This document shows positions 46,646-55,647 of a DNA stretch of 64,000 bases, in pieces. This stretch comes from Ignavibacteriota bacterium. Its GTDB lineage: Bacteria; Bacteroidota; Ignavibacteria; Ignavibacteriales; Melioribacteraceae. The notes below the pieces were generated by a model. It saw nothing but the letters and a program-made list of their open reading frames with translations. It did no database searches and was not told the origin of the DNA. The translations under genes and the position numbers were made by a program. The first letter of the stretch is position 1. Every line of letters starts with the position of its first letter. The stretch is taken from the NCBI GenBank assembly GCA_013112585.1, contig JABFGH010000004.1:205169-269168 (forward strand), given 5' to 3'.

Positions 46646-47917
46646 ATGAAAAATAATTTTTACAACGAATTCGACATCGAGCGGCTGAATGAAAGTCCGC
46701 GCGAAGATTACAGATCACCTTTTCAAATTGATAGGGATAGAGTAATTCATTCCTCTGAGTTTAGAAGACTGCAGGGCAAAACGCAGGTGTTTTTACCAGG
46801 CGAATATGATTTTTACAGAACCCGCCTAACCCACTCGATTGAAGTTGCACAAATTGGTCGATCCATCTGCAACTATATTTCAAAAATTGAAAGAGACCTG
46901 TTTGATGAAGATTATTTTATTGATCCGGATTTAGTGGAAGCCGCATGTTTGGCTCATGATTTAGGGCATCCGCCGTTTGGACATGCTGGCGAACGTACAC
47001 TGCATAAATTAATGAAATCCTATGGCGGATTTGAAGGCAATGCCCAAACATTACGATTGATTACAGAAGTATTTTACCGTACCGAAGAGAGCCGAAGAGG
47101 GATGAATCCCTGCCGCGCATTTTTAGATAGTGTGCTCAAGTACAAAAAAATGTTCGGTGAAATGGATGATCCATTCAATCATTTTCTTTATGATTATCAA
47201 AAAACATATTTGGATTTTGTTTTCGGCGGCGAAAAGTTTCCGGATGAAATTCAGCCGGAAGATAAGCTGAATAATTTTAGAAGCATCGAATGCCAAATAA
47301 TGGATTGGGCGGATGATACTGCATACGCTGTTAATGATCTCGTTGATAGTATTTCAGGCGGATTTATAACTATCGCTAAACTTGTAAGTTACGGCAATAA
47401 AAATTCGGGCAGATTTACAGATAATGAAAATAAATATCTCGAAGAAATGATTGAGTGGATTAAAGCGGGAAAGTTCAAAGCTAAATTTGGTTCGCAGATT
47501 GGAGATATAATTACGGCATGCAAAATTAAAAAACGCTCAACATTCATGGATGCAAAAACCAACCGTTATAAATATTTTCTTGAAGTTGATAATGAAGTTT
47601 TTGAAAAAGTACAATTTTACAAAAATCTTTCCGTGGAATTAGTTTTCCGTTCACCGCAGCTTCACCAACTTGAGTTTAAGGGTGATTTTATGATCAGCAA
47701 GATTTTTAATGTGCTCGAAGAAAACTACATTCAAAATTCCGGTAATGCAAAGCTGGTGCCCGATTTTTCCCACAATATCATCCGCAATGAAAAAGATAAA
47801 ATTGAGCGCGCACGCTTAGTCTGCGATTATGTAGCCGGAATGACCGACAGTCACGCAATGAGAAACTACAAGCGCTTGTTTGATCCGGATTATAGTTCGC
47901 TGGTTGATTTGGTGTGA
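46646..47917 (+). CDS. dgt: Deoxyguanosinetriphosphate triphosphohydrolase
   Basis: 423 residues. The HD-domain metal site is H63 (TRLTHSIEVAQIGR), H104-D105 (AHDLGHPPFGHAGE) and a later D in QIMDWADDTAYAVNDLVD. The EFRRLQGKTQVF (39-50) motif is the dGTPase signature. It hydrolyses dGTP to deoxyguanosine and triphosphate. ATG 46646 is chosen over TTG 46634; no convincing ribosome-binding site is visible for either. The tandem-repeat spacer lies just upstream. Confidence 0.9.
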   Translation: MKNNFYNEFDIERLNESPREDYRSPFQIDRDRVIHSSEFRRLQGKTQVFLPGEYDFYRTRLTHSIEVAQIGRSICNYISKIERDLFDEDYFIDPDLVEAACLAHDLGHPPFGHAGERTLHKLMKSYGGFEGNAQTLRLITEVFYRTEESRRGMNPCRAFLDSVLKYKKMFGEMDDPFNHFLYDYQKTYLDFVFGGEKFPDEIQPEDKLNNFRSIECQIMDWADDTAYAVNDLVDSISGGFITIAKLVSYGNKNSGRFTDNENKYLEEMIEWIKAGKFKAKFGSQIGDIITACKIKKRSTFMDAKTNRYKYFLEVDNEVFEKVQFYKNLSVELVFRSPQLHQLEFKGDFMISKIFNVLEENYIQNSGNAKLVPDFSHNIIRNEKDKIERARLVCDYVAGMTDSHAMRNYKRLFDPDYSSLVDLV

Positions 47918-48520
47918 ACGTTTAGACGTAGAGACGTTGAAACGTAAAGAAGTAAATTAGTAAGGCTGAGATTGCCTGCGGAAGGCAGGTTCATCGAAGC
48001 CCGACGGACAAGTAAAACCTCTCGAAAATCCTGCCTAATCGGCAGGCAGGCGGTAATCGTATAATCGAAAATGAAAGATGTAAAGACGTTGAGACGTAAA
48101 GATGTAAAAATTTATAGGTGTAGAGGAAGAATAGGAGTTTGGATTAAATTTGAGTGGCGGAGTCTGAATGCGGCGGGCTGTCACTTCCTAAAATTGGTTT
48201 ACATGTTTTTATTCTGAATTCTGACTTCTGAATTCTGCTTTGCGCTTTCCACTTTCCCATTTGAATTTAATTAGATAATAAACTATTTTTATTGCGAGGT
48301 TAATTTTAAGGTATTGGGTATGTGCTTAGGAACGTCATGATTGGATTTGCATTTTTTAAGTTTCGTTGGATTTATATCTTGCAAAAATGAAAATACTGCA
48401 TAATGCAAAAATTACAGTTGATAAATTTTTAAGTAAATAAAAAACAATTGGTTGCAAAATTGCTCGGAGTGTTATCTTGCATTTACTGCATGATAGCATT
48501 CTTGAGTGCTTAATAATTTT
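47918..48520. repeat. Non-coding spacer with dispersed repeats
   Basis: No gene is supported. It holds AGACGT-rich phrases at 47925-47950 and 48085-48105, the inverted REP-like unit at 48030-48051 beside CGGTAATCGTATAATCGA, and a TTCTGAATTCTGAC run near 48215-48240. The last 70 bases lead into an attC-like half site. Confidence 0.7.
48030..48051. repeat. REP-like palindrome, copy 2 (inverted)
   Basis: Exact reverse complement of 21432-21453. The neighbouring CGGTAATCGTATAATCGA (48051-48068) is the exact reverse complement of 21401-21418, so both pieces moved or duplicated together. Confidence 0.85.
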
Positions 48521-48546
48521 GCGGCTTATTAAATATGTTATATGGC
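48521..48546 (+). other. attC-like half site upstream of the type IX cargo pair
   Basis: GCGGCTTAT, seven bases, then GTTATATGGC (48537-48546). The latter is the perfect reverse complement of GCCATATAAC at 51881-51890, which follows the second cargo gene. GCGGCTTAT recurs at 52909-52917 and as GCCGCTTAT at 52046-52054. The left half of the site is not recognisable. Confidence 0.4.
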
Positions 48547-48590
48547 TCGTTTAATTAACAATATCAAAAACAAATTCATAGTAAGGTCAT

Positions 48591-49733
48591 ATGAAACGGC
48601 CAGCTTTCTTTTTCGTCTTTGCTCTTTTTACTTTGTCGCTTTTTGCACAAGAGACAATACCTGACAAGCAGTTTATGCTTGGTTGTACAAATGTAGGATC
48701 ATCGGAACAAGTTACGCACTACATTAATGCCGCTGGTGAGGTGTGGCAATACAGAAGCGGTAATTTTATTTACGGAGGTGTTTATAGTAACTCGCTTGTA
48801 ACAGTTGGTAATGCAAATTTTCAAAGTGCAGATTGGCCCGGATTTAATTTCAATTGGTTATTTGGTGAACCTTACTGGTCATTAGGCTTATACAAAGTTA
48901 CTAACTCAAAACAACCAAGCAAGTATTTTTATTTGGATGCTAGAGATAGTTTTTTTGGTAGTGCAACATCTCAAGATTTTTATATTTACTTTGATCATAC
49001 CGATGGTGAGTATAAAAAGCACAGACCAACACAGCCCTTTATCCAAATCAATAATGGCGATGTTATTAGGATATGGGATATTTTCGGATGGGACCCTACA
49101 ACAAACGGATTGCAAAATTATTGGAGCAATGTATTAGTTTTAGTAAATGATGGTAATAACCATCCTCGATTGATTTGGGGACCTTACCCGAACAAGGATT
49201 TTGTTGTTTCATACTACAAAATTTATAAAAAGAAAGGATTACAAAATTTCGCACTCTATACGACGACCACTAATGCGGAATATATTGATCTGCAAGAAAC
49301 GTTATTAGTAGGCCCGCCTGTAGCAAATGAAACCACAGCAAAATATAAGGTAACGGCAGTTGGCTATTTAACTGAGACTTTAAATGAAACCAGTGCGAGT
49401 AATGTAGTTGAAGCAAGAGTTGCTGGTGATCCGTCTCAAAAAATTGGTCACAACCATAATACTTCAATTAAAGAATTTACGTTAGATCAGAATTATCCAA
49501 ACCCGTTTAACCCGGCAACTGTAATATCATATTCTGTTGCTGAAAATTCTTTTATCTCTCTTAAAGTTTATGATGTTTTGGGTAACGAAATAACCGAATT
49601 GGTTAATGAGGTAAAAGAACCGGGTAATTATTCTATCTCATTTAATGCTTCTGCCCTTCCGAGTGGCATATATTTTTACACGGTGATAGCAAATGGTTAT
49701 ACTTTAACAAAGAAGATGCTATTAGCAAAGTAA
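48591..49733 (+). CDS. Type IX-secreted protein with type A sorting domain
   Basis: 380 residues. Signal peptide (PAFFFVFALFTLSLFAQE), then about 270 residues I do not recognise, with many aromatic and Asn residues (HPRLIWGPYPNKD, WSNVLVLVNDGN). A fibronectin-like bridge (about 215-285: SYYKIYKKKGLQNF) leads to the C-terminal sorting domain QNYPNPFNPATVISYSV...LPSGIYFYTV (about 300-380, key residues only). The domain sends it across the outer membrane by the type IX system. AAGGTC precedes the ATG. It is paired with the next cargo gene, 41 bases away. Confidence 0.8.
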   Translation: MKRPAFFFVFALFTLSLFAQETIPDKQFMLGCTNVGSSEQVTHYINAAGEVWQYRSGNFIYGGVYSNSLVTVGNANFQSADWPGFNFNWLFGEPYWSLGLYKVTNSKQPSKYFYLDARDSFFGSATSQDFYIYFDHTDGEYKKHRPTQPFIQINNGDVIRIWDIFGWDPTTNGLQNYWSNVLVLVNDGNNHPRLIWGPYPNKDFVVSYYKIYKKKGLQNFALYTTTTNAEYIDLQETLLVGPPVANETTAKYKVTAVGYLTETLNETSASNVVEARVAGDPSQKIGHNHNTSIKEFTLDQNYPNPFNPATVISYSVAENSFISLKVYDVLGNEITELVNEVKEPGNYSISFNASALPSGIYFYTVIANGYTLTKKMLLAK

Positions 49734-49773
49734 ATTTATAAAAGTTATATCACCGACAAGCAAGGAGCTGACA

Positions 49774-51876
49774 ATGAAACAAATAATATTTTTGATTTTT
49801 ATTTTAGTGGTTTTTCTAAAAGGTATGTACGCACAAGAGCTAATATGGAAGCATACCGGAGGACCGATGGGAGGTATTGTCGGTGATATGGCTATTAATT
49901 CAAAGGGAGAAATTTATGCCGGTGTATACCCATCCTGGAATGTATACACCGGCTTGTATAAATCAACTGATAATGGAGAAAGTTGGTTTAAAGTTGAAAC
50001 ACAATTCGAAGATTTTGAAGTCTATACAATTTACATAACTAAAGAAGATCATATCTGGGTTGGAACAAATTTTCAAGACAGAATTTATCTTTCAACTGAT
50101 AATGGAGCGACCTGGGAAAATAAAAAAACCGGTTACAACACTAATGAATGCTGGGCATTCGGAGAAAGTAAAGATGGAATTATGTTCGCTGGAGATGGAC
50201 AGTATATTCAATTATATCGTTCGACAGACTACGGAGAAAATTGGGAGCTATCGGCAAATCTTCGTCCATTAGTTTTTGCTACCGCTTCAAATAATATAGT
50301 TTATACCGGAACGCACGATGGTTTATTTACAACAACAGATAATGGTTTAACGTGGGCACAGAATAACTTTCTTGCAAACATTCCTGTTTCGTCAATTCTC
50401 ATAGACTCTAATGATAATATTTATTGTGGAACTGGTTACTATGCCAATGGAAATGGAGTTTTTTATTCAACTGATGGAGGACAAAACTGGACACAATTAG
50501 GATTATCCGGTAAAGTGGTTTTATCTTTATCATTTGACTCACAAGGAAATATTTATGCGGGGACTAAACAAGATGGATTATTCAAGACTATAGATATGGG
50601 TCAAACCTGGCAACAATACAACAATGGGCTTTATCGTAAAGATGTTTTTAGACTTAAACTTAATAAACAAGATCATATTTTCGTTGGTTCTGAAAATGAA
50701 GGAATATTTCGTTCAACAAACTATGGAGAATCATTTGAGCATATTGGATTGCCTATTTCCAAAGTCAATAACATTGTTTTCAGTGGCGATAGTTTAGTTT
50801 TTTCTGCAACACCCTCTGGCGTTCAAGTATACCAAACTCATAATAAAGAATGGAAAAACCTTGGACTTCATAATGTTGAAGCAATAACTATAGCATCAAG
50901 CAACCATTTATATGTTGCTACATTTGATGAAGGATTATACAAGTCTACAGATTTGGGTAAATCTTGGTCATTAACCAATCTTACGCAAGATTCACTTATG
51001 TCAGTTTACAATGTTTTAGCTATAAACAATGATACAATATTTGCTGCTACAGAATTCAATTTAAGAATGTCTACTAATGGTGGTTTAAACTGGTCAGCTA
51101 CTCCAATAAAAACTACTTTTTTTTCAAGAGTACTATACTTGGATCATAACTCAAATTTATGGGTTAGCGGTTTTGGAGTAAATAATTATATATTGTATAG
51201 ATCAAGCAATCAAGGTATAACTTTCGATTCAGTTTATTATGGATTCTATTGGTTATATCAAAATTCTTTATCAGTAACCAGTAATAATTTTGTATATGTA
51301 TCAGATTTGCCTCCTGAAATCGGAATAACACGTTCATCAAACTATGGTCTAACTTGGAATAATGTTTTACCCAAGCAAATTTCAAAGAGTGTATTCGGAA
51401 ATCACCAAGGTTTGGTTATTGCTGGCTCTGACAGCATTTTTACTTCAATAGATTTTGGGAATACTTGGAACTATCAAAAGTATTTAGGATATGAAAACTT
51501 CACGACTGAAATAGAGTATTATAATGGGAAGTATTATCTTGGAACAGACAGAACTGGTCTGTATGTAGTTGATGTAATTACTTCAGTAGATGATAAAGAA
51601 AAGAATTTACCAAAATCTTATCAATTGTTTCAAAATTTTCCTAACCCGTTTAATCCTCTCACAAAAATAAAATTCAAGGTTCAAAAATCGGAATTTGTTC
51701 AAATAAGAGTTTATGATATACTTGGGAAAGAAATAAAAACATTATTAAATGAGTATAAAACAATCGGAAGTTATGAGGTTGAATTCGATGCAAGCGATTT
51801 ACCAAGCGGTGTTTATTTCTACAGAATGGTAAGTGGAGAATATTCAGAAACAAAAAAGATGTTGTTATTAAGATGA
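49774..51876 (+). CDS. Asp-box propeller protein with type A sorting domain
   Basis: 700 residues. Signal peptide (MKQIIFLIFILVVFLKGMYA) then about twelve Asp-box (BNR) hairpins of the type STDNGESW, STDNGATW, STDYGENW, TTDNGLTW, STDGGQNW, TIDMGQTW, STDLGKSW, STNGGLNW and SIDFGNTW, giving one or two beta-propellers as in Ycf48-like and sialidase-like proteins. The C-terminal FQNFPNPFNPLTKI...LPSGVYFYRM (from about 622) is a type IX sorting domain. It is probably a surface binding protein. AAGGAG precedes the ATG. GCCATATAAC begins five bases after its stop. Confidence 0.85.
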   Translation: MKQIIFLIFILVVFLKGMYAQELIWKHTGGPMGGIVGDMAINSKGEIYAGVYPSWNVYTGLYKSTDNGESWFKVETQFEDFEVYTIYITKEDHIWVGTNFQDRIYLSTDNGATWENKKTGYNTNECWAFGESKDGIMFAGDGQYIQLYRSTDYGENWELSANLRPLVFATASNNIVYTGTHDGLFTTTDNGLTWAQNNFLANIPVSSILIDSNDNIYCGTGYYANGNGVFYSTDGGQNWTQLGLSGKVVLSLSFDSQGNIYAGTKQDGLFKTIDMGQTWQQYNNGLYRKDVFRLKLNKQDHIFVGSENEGIFRSTNYGESFEHIGLPISKVNNIVFSGDSLVFSATPSGVQVYQTHNKEWKNLGLHNVEAITIASSNHLYVATFDEGLYKSTDLGKSWSLTNLTQDSLMSVYNVLAINNDTIFAATEFNLRMSTNGGLNWSATPIKTTFFSRVLYLDHNSNLWVSGFGVNNYILYRSSNQGITFDSVYYGFYWLYQNSLSVTSNNFVYVSDLPPEIGITRSSNYGLTWNNVLPKQISKSVFGNHQGLVIAGSDSIFTSIDFGNTWNYQKYLGYENFTTEIEYYNGKYYLGTDRTGLYVVDVITSVDDKEKNLPKSYQLFQNFPNPFNPLTKIKFKVQKSEFVQIRVYDILGKEIKTLLNEYKTIGSYEVEFDASDLPSGVYFYRMVSGEYSETKKMLLLR

Positions 51877-51880
51877 GAAC

Positions 51881-52070
51881 GCCATATAACCTGCCAATCA
51901 AGCGGACGCCGTATTTGGTTTCGGCATTTTCATAATTATTGGCTTTGTAGTTCCGTGTAAAATTACTTTGTAAAGTAGTTCTGTTAAATAAATTTTTTTA
52001 TAAATATAAAGTTGTTGGTATTATTCGGCATCCTTGTTATGAGGCGCCGCTTATCGGCCACGCCGTTACA
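51881..52070 (+). other. attC-like recombination site (long form)
   Basis: The left arm is CGCCATATAAC (51880-51890) then CAAGCGGACGCCG; the right arm is CGGCATCCTTG and GTTATGAGGCG, followed by GCCGCTTAT and GCCGTTAC. Outer arms pair at 9 of 11 positions, inner arms share CAAG and GCCG. The 45 bases at 52024-52068 match 52886-52930 at 38 positions. At ~190 bases it is longer than typical attC sites (57-141). Confidence 0.45.
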
Positions 52071-52085
52071 CACTATCGGGAAAAT

Positions 52086-52697
52086 ATGAATACAAAAGAA
52101 TACTTCTTAGATTATTGCCAAAAACTTGACAATCTAGTTGTACTTGATGAAGATGAACAGAACGAAATGTTCGATGGTTTTATAGAGTTTGCGAAATCAA
52201 ATAAAGAGGACTTAGTACCACTCATCAAAGATATTTCGCCAGAGCGGGGTGAATTACTAAACTGTATTTATGATAACTTGATGAGTCAAATTGATATTTG
52301 GCAAAAATTCTTCGTTGATGAATTAAAAAGACTATTTAGCTTTGCAGAATATTCTGAAAATTATAGAGAAGTATTTGTTGCCTTAGATGCTTTTTCTTAT
52401 ATAACTGTTGACGAGGATAAATCATTTTTTGAGGAAATTAGAGAGGAACTATTATCTCGAACTTATTCTTCAAATATATCAATAAAAAGAAAAGCTGTAT
52501 GGATGATGGGAGATTTTCTTTTTGAGAATAATGTTGCATATGTTAAAAGACTAGATGAATTGATATATGATCTTGATTGGAAAACTCGTTGCTTGGCACA
52601 TTTAGCATTAAATGAATTATATGGTAAAAATGAATATGCCAATATGGATCTGATGGATAAAATAAAATATAAATTCAAAAATGTATTTGATTTCTGA
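52086..52697 (+). CDS. Helical-repeat (HEAT-like) protein of unknown function
   Basis: 203 residues, all-helical by eye, acidic, without signal peptide. The C-terminal half (SIKRKAVWMMGDFLFENNVAY and WKTRCLAHLALNELYG, partly quoted) has the alternating helix pattern of HEAT repeats, often used in protein binding. I do not recognise a specific family. Small single genes like this between attC-like sites are typical integron cassette cargo. GGGAAAAT precedes the ATG. Confidence 0.6.
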   Translation: MNTKEYFLDYCQKLDNLVVLDEDEQNEMFDGFIEFAKSNKEDLVPLIKDISPERGELLNCIYDNLMSQIDIWQKFFVDELKRLFSFAEYSENYREVFVALDAFSYITVDEDKSFFEEIREELLSRTYSSNISIKRKAVWMMGDFLFENNVAYVKRLDELIYDLDWKTRCLAHLALNELYGKNEYANMDLMDKIKYKFKNVFDF

Positions 52698-52701
52698 AAG
52701 T

Positions 52702-52933
52702 GTTTAACAAGCTGCTCAACGCTGAACGCCATTCTGCGTGGGCGGGAAGTGGTAAAAATAGAGTGTAGAGTTTATACAAAAATTGGAGTTAAAGTATCGT
52801 AAATGCGTTCTCGATTTATCGGATGTAACAAGGTGACCAGTCCGCCGCGGCGGATTTGCATAAAAATTAAGGTGAGCTGTTTTAGTTCGGCATTTTTGTT
52901 ATGAGCGGCGGCTTATCAGCAACGCCGTTAAAA
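52702..52933 (+). other. attC-like recombination site (second copy)
   Basis: GTTTAAC (52702-52708) fits the RYYYAAC core and is followed by AAGCTGCTCAACGCTGAACG. The right half TTCGGCATTTTTGTTATGAG to CGCCGTTA (52886-52930) is 38/45 identical to the first site. GTTAAAA at 52927-52933 stands where GTTRRRY is expected. A 14-base palindrome TCCGCCGCGGCGGA lies inside (52841-52854). Confidence 0.45.
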
Positions 52934-52975
52934 ACTAAATAATATTCAATCAATAAGCACTTATTGGATAAGAAT

Positions 52976-53581
52976 ATGATTATAAATATCAACGAAGTTT
53001 ATCAATTCAAAATATCATTGAATAATTCCAAACCATTGATCTGGAGAAGAATAGTAGTTCCTTCTACTTATTCATTTTGGGATCTGCACGTTGCTATTCA
53101 AGATTCCATGGGCTGGCTCGATTACCATCTTCATTTATTTTCAATCAAAGACCCAATAACAAATCTTGAAGTCGAAATTGGAATTCCCGATGAAGAAGAT
53201 GATTTATTCAATAGAACTATTTTGGATGACTCTAGAATAAAAATAAAAAATTATTTTAATGAAGATAATCCGAAAGCCCGGTATGAATATGATTTTGGTG
53301 ATTCCTGGATTCATACTGTCAAATTAGAAAAAATACTCCCGGCTGCAATAGGTGAAACCTATCCTAAATGTACTGCCGGAAAAATGGCGTGCCCTCCGGA
53401 AGATTGCGGCGGCGTTCATGGTTACTATCATTTATTATCTGTATTAAGCGATCCTGAAGATGAAGAATATAGCGAAATGATCGAATGGTTGGGCGGCGAG
53501 TTTGATCCGGAATATTTTGATCCTACTGAAGTGTTCTTCGATGATCCGAATGAAAGATTTAACGAAATGAATGAATTTTAA
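52976..53581 (+). CDS. Plasmid pRiA4b ORF-3-like protein
   Basis: 201 residues. It matches the pRiA4b ORF-3 / IS1096 passenger family: VYQFKISLNNSKPLIWRRIV (about 6-25), the FWDLHVAIQDSMGW helix, YEYDFGDSWIHTVKLE and CPPEDCGGVHGYYHLL. The role of the family is unknown; it is frequent on plasmids, transposons and integron-like islands. ATG 52976 is chosen over TTG 52964 because GGATAAG lies just ahead. It sits directly after an attC-like site, in keeping with mobile cargo. Confidence 0.88.
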   Translation: MIININEVYQFKISLNNSKPLIWRRIVVPSTYSFWDLHVAIQDSMGWLDYHLHLFSIKDPITNLEVEIGIPDEEDDLFNRTILDDSRIKIKNYFNEDNPKARYEYDFGDSWIHTVKLEKILPAAIGETYPKCTAGKMACPPEDCGGVHGYYHLLSVLSDPEDEEYSEMIEWLGGEFDPEYFDPTEVFFDDPNERFNEMNEF

Positions 53582-53663
53582 GTGTTACTAAATTTTGTTA
53601 AGTTTTGTAAAATAAATTTTATCTAAAACTCGGTTTTAAATATTAAGGATAGGAAAAATAAAC

Positions 53664-53972
53664 ATGGATACAGACGATCTATCTGAAGAAGCTTATCAAG
53701 CTGTTATTATAAATTCAGAATTGTTTCATCACGATTTAACACTACAATTTGGAGTGTTGGCTGGAAGATGTAAAAATGAAGAGGAATACTTAGCAAATTC
53801 ATTGTTAATGATTGAATATTGGGAGTCTGATATTGACATTGTGCTTACTGAGATATTTTATGATAATCCCCCTGATAAAAATAAATTTAAGTCTAAATTA
53901 GCAGAATTGAAAAAATCAATTAAAGGTGTTCAAAAAATTCCATTTGAAAAAAGAAAACCGCAAAGATGGTGA
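53664..53972 (+). CDS. Small acidic protein, unknown function
   Basis: 102 residues, no signal peptide or membrane segment, mainly helical (ANSLLMIEYWESDIDIVLTE). I recognise no family. It has AGGATAGGAAAAATAA before the ATG and stops four bases before the UPF0158 gene, so the pair probably forms an operon. The C-terminal end is basic (PFEKRKPQRW). Confidence 0.6.
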   Translation: MDTDDLSEEAYQAVIINSELFHHDLTLQFGVLAGRCKNEEEYLANSLLMIEYWESDIDIVLTEIFYDNPPDKNKFKSKLAELKKSIKGVQKIPFEKRKPQRW

Positions 53973-53976
53973 TATC

Positions 53977-54396
53977 ATGAATTTAACAGATGAAAAAATA
54001 AAACAAATAGCAGAAGAGCTGGATTTAGGGATGAAAGTATATGTTCATAAAGAAACCCTAGAAATTAAAAGCATAATTGACTTTGATGATAATTTATACG
54101 CAGACCCGGAGTCTTGGCAAGAAGACATTGATGAAATTGAAGCTAATTATGACAAATATTTTGAGTTTTATGGAATGGATTCTAGAGAATCATTCAGGGT
54201 AATGGCTGACTTTGCTGATACTGTAACTGATAAAGAATTGAAAATGAAATTAGAATTAGGATTGAATCTTTCAAAGCCGTTCCGAAACTTCAAAGATATA
54301 ATAGATGCAGAGACAGATTATAGGGAAAAGTGGTTTAAATTTAAAAATCAAAAGTCTATTGATAATGTTAGAGCACAATTAGCTGATAGAGATTAA
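53977..54396 (+). CDS. UPF0158-family protein
   Basis: 139 residues. The pattern of LTDEKIKQIAEELDLGMKVY at the start, then DNLYADPESWQEDIDEIEAN and MADFADTVTDKELKMKLELG, followed by KPFRNFKDII, fits the UPF0158 family of small cytoplasmic proteins of unknown role. ATG 53977 with GGTGATATC ahead is chosen over 53926, which would overlap the previous gene. The pair of genes could be a small accessory module. Confidence 0.75.
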   Translation: MNLTDEKIKQIAEELDLGMKVYVHKETLEIKSIIDFDDNLYADPESWQEDIDEIEANYDKYFEFYGMDSRESFRVMADFADTVTDKELKMKLELGLNLSKPFRNFKDIIDAETDYREKWFKFKNQKSIDNVRAQLADRD

Positions 54397-54414
54397 TTAA
54401 CGATTATATGAATT

Positions 54415-55215
54415 ATGAAAATTATTAAGAATATTATTTTTACACTCAGTTGTATAGTAATTTCTGCAAGCTGCGACTTGTTAGAAAGTGATGAAACCAA
54501 AGTAACTGCTTTAGATAGTAAAGTTGAATTCAAAATATTTGAATCTTATGAAACACTCAACAAGGTTGAGGAGCCCAAAGTATATATTGAAATGAAAACT
54601 GAAAAAATTTACGGTTGTTTCAATTTTTCAATTTTAACAGAGCAATCTATCAGCAGTAACAAAATTGATATTCAAATACTTGGTATTTATAAACCGGGCG
54701 TCTGTCTTACTGCACTCGGTCCGGCATCGCGAAGAATAAGACTGGGTAGTCTTTCGGGAGTTTATGAAATAACTATTCGGAATAATCAGTTTAATGATAA
54801 ATATAATTTGTTAATAACCGATTCTCTGATAATAAGCGATGGAAAAGATACTGACAATACAAAATCACTTACTTCATTTCTTCATCGCTACCCCCAAAAT
54901 TCCTTTGCTTACTTATTCGGTTCGTTAGATTCGCTAAAATATTTTAGGGAAGAATTTATAGATACACTTTCTACTGTAATAAATATTGAAGAATTTTTCT
55001 TCTCTGAATTCGCAAGCATACCATATCTAGAATCAAGTCAAGGTCATCAATATGATGCCCCGGCAAAATATTTCAATTATGAAAGCGAAGAAGACTTCAA
55101 CCGGATAGAAGGTGTAATGAAATCCTTTATTGAAAAGCAATCACCTGAAAATAGTAGTTATTCTATATCAATAATAAATTGGAAAAATCAAAAAATAAGG
55201 AGCTGGTTATTTTAA
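54415..55215 (+). CDS. Putative lipoprotein, unknown function
   Basis: 266 residues. Lipobox ISASC with the Cys at about 20 (MKIIKNIIFTLSCIVISASC). The body (GCFNFSILTEQSIS, VCLTALGPASRRIRLGSLSG) is beta-rich. I do not recognise the family. The ATG 54415 lies 18 bases after the previous stop. The frame ends at 55215, shortly before a decayed gene. Confidence 0.6.
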   Translation: MKIIKNIIFTLSCIVISASCDLLESDETKVTALDSKVEFKIFESYETLNKVEEPKVYIEMKTEKIYGCFNFSILTEQSISSNKIDIQILGIYKPGVCLTALGPASRRIRLGSLSGVYEITIRNNQFNDKYNLLITDSLIISDGKDTDNTKSLTSFLHRYPQNSFAYLFGSLDSLKYFREEFIDTLSTVINIEEFFFSEFASIPYLESSQGHQYDAPAKYFNYESEEDFNRIEGVMKSFIEKQSPENSSYSISIINWKNQKIRSWLF

Positions 55216-55269
55216 ATGCTATGCATCCGGTAAATCAACCTGTTTTTAAAACATGCAGTCAAGTTCGAT

Positions 55270-55647
55270 TTGCTGTATGGTCATTGGTTAGTATTAACTT
55301 TGACGTTTGATATGGTAGTTTTTAATAAACAATACACCACTAAGTTTTCAGGGGAATTTAAAATTTCTAAATCCAACCCGAAACAGGGTGATAGTTGGTG
55401 GGTCCTTCCAACTGTGCAAGATTCAACAAATAATTTAACTACTGTAGAAGTTATTGATCAATTAGTTACCCCGGCAGGTATATTTAATGATGTAGTTAGT
55501 AATAAGTCTTATGATCCTTATTTTTCTGATACTGTAAATGTTTATTACGTAAAAGGTATTGGGCATGTTGGAACTATTAGGGGAACAGATACTATGTTAG
55601 TTAATTATATAAAAGTAGAGGATTTAGTTTATGGAGAAAAATTCTAA
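55270..55647 (+). pseudogene. Remnant of an exported protein gene (N terminus missing)
   Basis: The 125-residue frame starts at a TTG with no ribosome-binding site or signal peptide. The protein looks like the C-terminal part of a lipoprotein-type beta-domain (TTVEVIDQLVTPAGIFNDVV, VYYVKGIGHVGTIRG). The upstream bases have no in-frame start; the N-terminal part is probably lost or in another frame. Alternatively a short gene begins at ATG 55312. Confidence 0.45.

Follow-up and report, generated by a model that had tools for sequence, protein, structure and literature searches.

Our analysis of a 64,000-nt stretch of the chromosome of an uncultured Ignavibacteriota bacterium (contig JABFGH010000004.1, hereafter the window) indicates that the region 48,310–55,390 is likely the remnant of a chromosomal integron lacking an integrase, in which two cassettes, each ended by an attC site, follow a probable decayed attI; we put the probability of this reading at roughly 85%. 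A preliminary description of the window had suggested a possible chromosomal integron array, and this proposal is supported by the complementarity of the cassette boundaries, the covariation within the attC sites, and the presence of the same attC family beside intI in relatives. The array is likely to be a remnant because no IntI was found in its own genome though many relatives have one. The features of the region, all on the + strand, are as follows.

48,261–48,290, + strand: promoter-like stretch, TTG-N20-TAnnTTT, predicted to drive the first cassette
48,310–48,345, + strand: head (leader) element, GGTATTGGGTA..TG.TTAGG....TC..GATTGGA
48,460–48,539, + strand: probable decayed attI, crossover predicted after G48537
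48,538–52,065, + strand: cassette 1, two genes plus attC
48,591–49,733, + strand: cassette 1 gene 1, 380 aa, type IX secretion sorting tail (Por_Secre_tail, PF18962, 3.7e-10; TIGR04183)
49,774–51,876, + strand: cassette 1 gene 2, 700 aa, BNR/sortilin-like propeller with type IX sorting tail (PF15902, 1e-21; PF18962, 1.4e-12)
51,881–52,069, + strand: attC 1, about 189 nt, with R'' at 51,881–51,890, L'' at about 51,893–51,911, L' at about 52,045–52,058 and R' at 52,065–52,068 (from alignment, pair count and model)
52,066–52,927, + strand: cassette 2
52,086–52,697, + strand: cassette 2 gene, 203 aa, near-orphan, predicted helical at low confidence
52,699–52,931, + strand: attC 2, about 233 nt, weaker arms, possibly decaying
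52,976–53,581, + strand: PRiA4_ORF3-family gene (PF07929, 1e-64), possibly a former cassette 3 without a recognisable attC
53,664–54,396, + strand: 102-aa gene and UPF0158 gene, possibly a former cassette 4
55,240–55,386, + strand: weak attC relic, central part only (24.4 bits, model positions 27–201; E 2e-4 in the window, 0.016 for the genome)

The start of each cassette complements its own attC

The two cassettes lie head to tail. In both long sites, the R'' box directly follows the stop codon (at 51,881 and 52,699) and GTTA stands at the end (52,065 and 52,927). The preliminary description had noted a shared motif followed by GTTA at three places, all of which are present: GCGGCTTAT at 48,521–48,529 is followed by GTTA at 48,537, GCCGCTTAT by GTTA at 52,065, and GCGGCTTAT again by GTTA at 52,927. 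A recount by eye agrees with its figure of 38 equal positions of 45 between 52,024–52,068 and 52,886–52,930 (7 of 45 differ), and a repeat search finds the 3' halves of the window sites 83% alike over 52 nt. The perfect complements that it saw around the cargo pair are also there, as GTTATATGGC (48,537–48,546) is the exact reverse complement of GCCATATAAC (51,881–51,890) at 10 of 10 positions.

The first bases of both window cassettes complement their own R'' (10/10 for cassette 1 and 9/10 for cassette 2; 6/6 and 5/6 over the variable positions), with the crossover at G^TT. Such agreement is specific to the cassette. Specifically, a cassette start and its own R'' agree at 5.74 of 6 variable positions on average, versus 2.18 for 506 foreign pairs, and the observed agreement sum of 132 was approached by none of 20,000 permutations, all of which remained at or below 83. 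These figures derive from the 23 of 30 cassettes, in seven arrays, in which R'' was found by the L-box motif alone; the other seven were left out, and four of these score 9–10 of 10 by complementarity. The starts of three of the 23, all first cassettes (those of the window, L060 and L048), were placed by complementarity itself, while 20 of 23 are independent of it. The notion of small gene units delimited by attC-like sites is retained as an integron-type array, with two corrections: the left boundary looks like attI, and the last good attC comes before the pRiA4b gene.

The attC sites are long and their arms covary

We aligned 26 attC sites over 252 columns, comprising the two window sites, three from elsewhere in the same genome and 21 from arrays in five relatives; the sites were picked by motif, so the pair counts lean towards structure. 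With a structure model of four R pairs and sixteen L and spacer pairs, 96.0% of cells are paired between R''-L'' and L'-R', versus 82.1% in shuffled and 25–45% in slid alignments, and cells changed on both sides number 59 versus 17.9. Window site 1 is paired at 19 of 20 positions and window site 2 at 17 of 20. Furthermore, every one of the 26 sites has C and A in two columns of the L'' side, corresponding to extrahelical G and T of the bottom strand. Consistent with this, part of the account of attC in PMC2727003 describes as conserved a G and a T of that strand which are extrahelical and 6–8 nt apart.

The preliminary description had counted a failure to fold into an attC hairpin against its proposal, and the outcome differs between the whole sites and their arms. 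Over their full length, the bottom strands of both window sites are no more stable when folded than shuffled sequences (z −0.64 and 0.05). In 12 of 23 sites, namely the two of the window and 10 of the 21 from relatives, the arms do not pair with each other in the best full-length fold. When the middle is taken out and only the arms are folded, 0 of 200 shuffles are as low as site 1 and 8 of 200 are as low as site 2; arm pairing is good in site 1 and weak in site 2, and the arms covary over the 26 sites. Site 2 may be decaying. A search of Rfam gave no match at the gathering score. The covariance model that we built from the 26 sites, a check proposed at the outset, finds both window sites at 145.8 and 105.1 bits, both being among its training members.

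The sites had been described as longer than usual, and at about 189 and 233 nt they extend well beyond the 45 nt first seen. Sections of two papers give attC lengths of 57 to 141 bp (PMC12901181) and 57 to 142 nt (PMC2727003); the window sites fall outside 57–142 nt, limits that represent a described range and not a mechanistic requirement. Covariance matches listed across the order measure 186–259 nt, the model having been trained on sites of 186–233 nt. Long sites are not the sole kind, since a 59-nt candidate attC with 10/10 complementarity is present in genome G089. The default maximum attC size of IntegronFinder is 200 bp. A run with a maximum of 200 bp is stated in a passage of PMC13203075.

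Further copies occur in the genome and across the order

The absence of other copies had been named as a point against an array, and it does not hold: many copies are found in the same genome and in relatives. Searching the 4.94-Mb genome for the 23-nt 3' half with at most three mismatches gave six places, versus one for the reversed control. Two are in the window, three (on contigs C10, C20 and C25) have 1–2 mismatches, and the one on C3, with 3 mismatches, is probably due to chance. At E<1e-7, the covariance model yields 12 matches in this genome, of which five are training sites and seven were not used in training: two each on C4 (the window), C10, C17 and C25, and one each on C20, C3, C11 and C13.

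Beyond this genome, 119 of 164 genomes of the order match the long-attC family at 1e-8 (at most the best 13 candidates per genome scored). In a sample of the phylum, 42 of 395 genomes match (33 of the same order and nine outside it; best five candidates per genome scored); most of the nine are weak or short, and one, in G342, reaches 130 bits. The 3' half is carried by 25 named contigs, of which 12 are labelled Ignavibacteria, Ignavibacteriales, Melioribacteraceae or Stygiobacter, 11 Bacteroidota, Bacteroidetes or Bacteroidia, one Kapabacteria and one Labilibaculum. The attC family and intI co-occur: 62 genomes of the order have both, 6 intI only, 57 attC only and 39 neither (Fisher p 3e-6).

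The left end resembles an attI

Two of the three places originally taken as attC-like are attC sites, and the third, at 48,521, is rejected as one; the covariance model finds no site there, attC arms are lacking, and the place resembles attI instead. When three attI scores are applied at fixed position, the 78 nt at the left junction rank 1, 3 and 1 among 597 GTTA places, none of 1000 shuffles scores as high, and the core by itself ranks 2, 2 and 8 of 597. The attI that best matches the junction is the one before the homologous cassette in G059. In the same genome, clear attI cores stand before the first cassette on C17 and C20, and C10 has a core with A for G. We retain the attI reading because the fixed-position tests and these paralogs support it, and 48,460–48,539 is quite probably a decayed attI.

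Alternatively, IntI acting in trans may have inserted the cassettes at a secondary chromosomal site, so that the left end never was an attI. In line with such an insertion, attI profiles built from 20, 10 and 11 sequences do not single out the left junction (only 20 of 29 sequences entered the first profile, and locus L021 is without a match in a later profile scan), its mean attI score of 7.6 is well below the 27.8–37.2 of genuine attI left out in turn, and no intI remnant adjoins it. The ranks and shuffles above, the look-alike junctions before the first cassettes on C10, C17 and C20, and the match to the attI in G059 argue against it, and we regard a secondary site as unlikely.

Around the attI-like cores on C17, C20 and C10, no intI was found in the stretches read. 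The attI on C17 (L196, position 3046) and that on C20 (L197, position 2993) are 78% identical over 169 nt, and each stands before cassettes.

The 36-nt leader occurs six times in this genome (3 mismatches in one copy), whereas the other 163 genomes of the order gave no match to it. Beyond the window, its copies (in G000) are at C5:232994, C10:161054, C11:56460, C16:51717 and C20:86736. It precedes the cassette junction by 227 nt on C4 (the window), 136 nt on C10 and 256 nt on C20, so that three of the attI-like platforms without intI stand behind it. The C5 copy has a weaker attI-like place at 232 nt and no attC was found there, no attI is seen by eye at the C16 copy, and C17 has an attI and no leader.

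The motif TTG-N20-TAnnTTT, which we take to resemble the Bacteroidota promoter consensus, lies 49 or 53 nt before five of the six leader copies, versus a background of 0.025 per 70 nt, the copies being related and not independent. Our best guess is that the leader and the motif upstream of it form a predicted cassette promoter. A sigma-70 scan found 26 sites versus 31.3 expected. Between the HD-domain gene and the array, 47,916–48,124 contains short 8-nt tandem-like repeats (AGACGTNN), and stretches related to them precede the C20 platform.

The array may have extended further

The 102-aa gene and the UPF0158 gene beyond the last good attC are 60–68% and 59–60% identical to genes that neighbour each other on attC-bearing contigs of G060. 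Because of these matches, the array may once have reached about 55.4 kb, near the end of the weak attC relic.

The PRiA4_ORF3-family gene has relatives 75–78% identical to it at L098, L101 and L136 (in G095, G100 and G116), which stand in other neighbourhoods; by eye, two PRiA4_ORF3-family relatives sit after attC-like stretches. A search for an empty site through five loci of pRiA4b relatives matched no other ORF of the window, except for type IX tails in one. The G116 locus at first resembled an empty site, but by eye the two ends of its pRiA4b gene are nearly complementary, and this gene may itself be a cassette.

Many relatives carry an integrase not found in this genome

A search with the TIGR02249 profile found no IntI over the cut-off in the genome (4.94 Mb in 77 contigs, 99.97% complete), the best piece scoring 82.8 bits versus 265, and no convincing intI remnant is present near the array or in the window. 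In particular, no intI stands next to the array, as it would in a complete integron. The preliminary description had advised looking for intI and had listed a genome without integrase as a point against its proposal, and this one point does stand against it. A broken tyrosine recombinase piece is present at C16:24409–24807 (G000, L003), 28–30% identical to the IntI of relatives over about 140–150 residues. It was rejected as IntI, as this identity is comparable to that of Xer-like proteins (22–31%).

Of the 164 genomes of the order, 57 have an IntI over the cut-off and 68 have one at 1e-35. In G140 and G048, the array directly follows intI, and twelve sites were read in G140. At 24 of 30 intI loci (L017–L046), an attI-like core ending in GTT lies 105–218 nt after the intI stop codon, indicating that intI in this order runs towards attI and the cassettes; the other six loci are without a GTT core.

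Homologs of both cassette 1 proteins are found together in G059, G060 and G111. At L173 (G059) and L176 (G060), DNA similarity to cassette 1 begins at 48,537, the predicted crossover, and at L174 it begins 5 nt before this position. Over the three loci, identity is 0.82–0.85 in the 60 nt after the crossover versus 0.52–0.62 in the 100 nt before it. At L173, an attC stands just before the cassette 1 homolog with intI on the same contig, and L174 has, in order, the C-terminus of intI, attI and the cassette 1 homolog. Hence both the attC family and a homologous first cassette are found beside intI in relatives. In G111, a pattern search of the 8 kb read gave no attC.

IntI is able to act in trans, and the genome is in 77 contigs, so an active IntI encoded in a gap or on a plasmid could be missing from the assembly and keep the array mobile. 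This is improbable in view of the near completeness of a genome with no place over the IntI cut-off, and of the position of the array well inside a 269-kb contig with no adjoining intI. That the shared stretches are an unrelated repeat dispersed between genes, as the likeness of their central parts and the insignificant full-length folds might suggest, is very hard to reconcile with the cassette-specific complementarity, the covarying arms, the position beside intI in relatives and the break of similarity at the predicted crossover.

Taken as an integron remnant, the array would have formed as follows. IntI would fold the bottom strand of each attC into a hairpin in which R''-L'' pairs with L'-R', the two extrahelical bases would mark the strand of the folded site, and IntI would join attC to attI or to another attC at G^TT. 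Cassette 1, with its two type IX cargo proteins, and cassette 2, with its near-orphan protein, would have been captured in turn, intI would have been lost, and the promoter with its leader (48,261–48,345) is predicted to drive the first cassette.

Some cassettes carry type IX cargo

Both proteins of cassette 1 end in a type IX sorting tail. Such tails are present in 10 of 53 cassette ORFs of relatives, the cassette 1 homologs being among those scanned. Among 58 ORFs lying upstream of intI in three relatives there is at most one, as the listing covers 25 of 128 families and could omit one Por_Secre_tail member. The cassette 2 protein has one other relative (71%) in a protein search, and within the order it occurs in one of 164 genomes, its own; its predicted structure was set aside (pLDDT 45.7). 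Single cassette ORFs of relatives match AbiTii, reverse transcriptase, HNH nuclease and AbiEii-like AAA families, possibly representing defence cargo.

Relation to known integrons

A CALIN, a term of IntegronFinder, is a cluster of attC sites lacking an integron integrase, and such clusters are proposed, in passages of PMC9024848, to be degraded integrons. The window holds an integron-derived array of this already known kind, namely a CALIN in which the attC sites are unusually long and a probable attI relic is left. It shares with other CALINs two neighbouring attC sites and no IntI over the cut-off, as judged by our own covariance model and the TIGR02249 profile. It differs in the probable attI in front, in attC lengths of about 189 and 233 nt, and in that at least seven other contigs of the genome carry further sites or pairs of this kind.

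Complete integrons are reported in Chlorobi and Ignavibacteriae in a passage of the same paper. These belong to the lineage studied here, in which the long attC family stands beside IntI in relatives, whereas no IntI was found in this genome; the passage is silent on long attC, secretion cargo and lone attI. Transcription of intI towards attI is called atypical in an excerpt on the chromosomal integrons of Treponema (PMC3607928), and the 24 of 30 loci above share this orientation; Treponema belongs to another phylum and is likened by gene orientation, not by sequence. With the large attC sites of the Vibrio VCR type, as far as a section of PMC2727003 describes them, the window sites have in common R and L boxes, extrahelical G and T, a spacer and a long variable terminal structure. 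They differ in that the terminal part is longer still and that 12 of 23 sites, the two of the window among them, keep their arms apart when the whole site takes its best fold.

Literature searches gave nothing on topic, by title or start of abstract, for integrons with type IX secretion cassettes, and nothing for lone or multiple attI, both weak negatives as few subscription papers were within scope. For Ignavibacteria integrons and attC, a search with the same mostly open-access scope gave PMC9024848 alone.

Implications

What looks new is the long-attC family, the type IX cargo in cassettes, and the presence of several intI-less attI platforms in one genome. Tentatively, these could form a distributed integrase-less integron, in which several attI platforms, at least three with the same lineage-specific promoter-leader, would express cassettes and be refilled in trans by a visiting IntI, with the long-attC family partly hidden by a 200-nt ceiling; we consider this possible and rather doubtful. 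As many long attC exceed the 200-bp maximum of the kind used in the cited portion of PMC13203075, the cassette pools of the order may be undercounted. The finding makes cassette expression from attI platforms after intI loss testable. Furthermore, the enrichment of type IX tails among cassette ORFs over ORFs upstream of intI suggests that integrons of this order may shuffle surface or secreted proteins.
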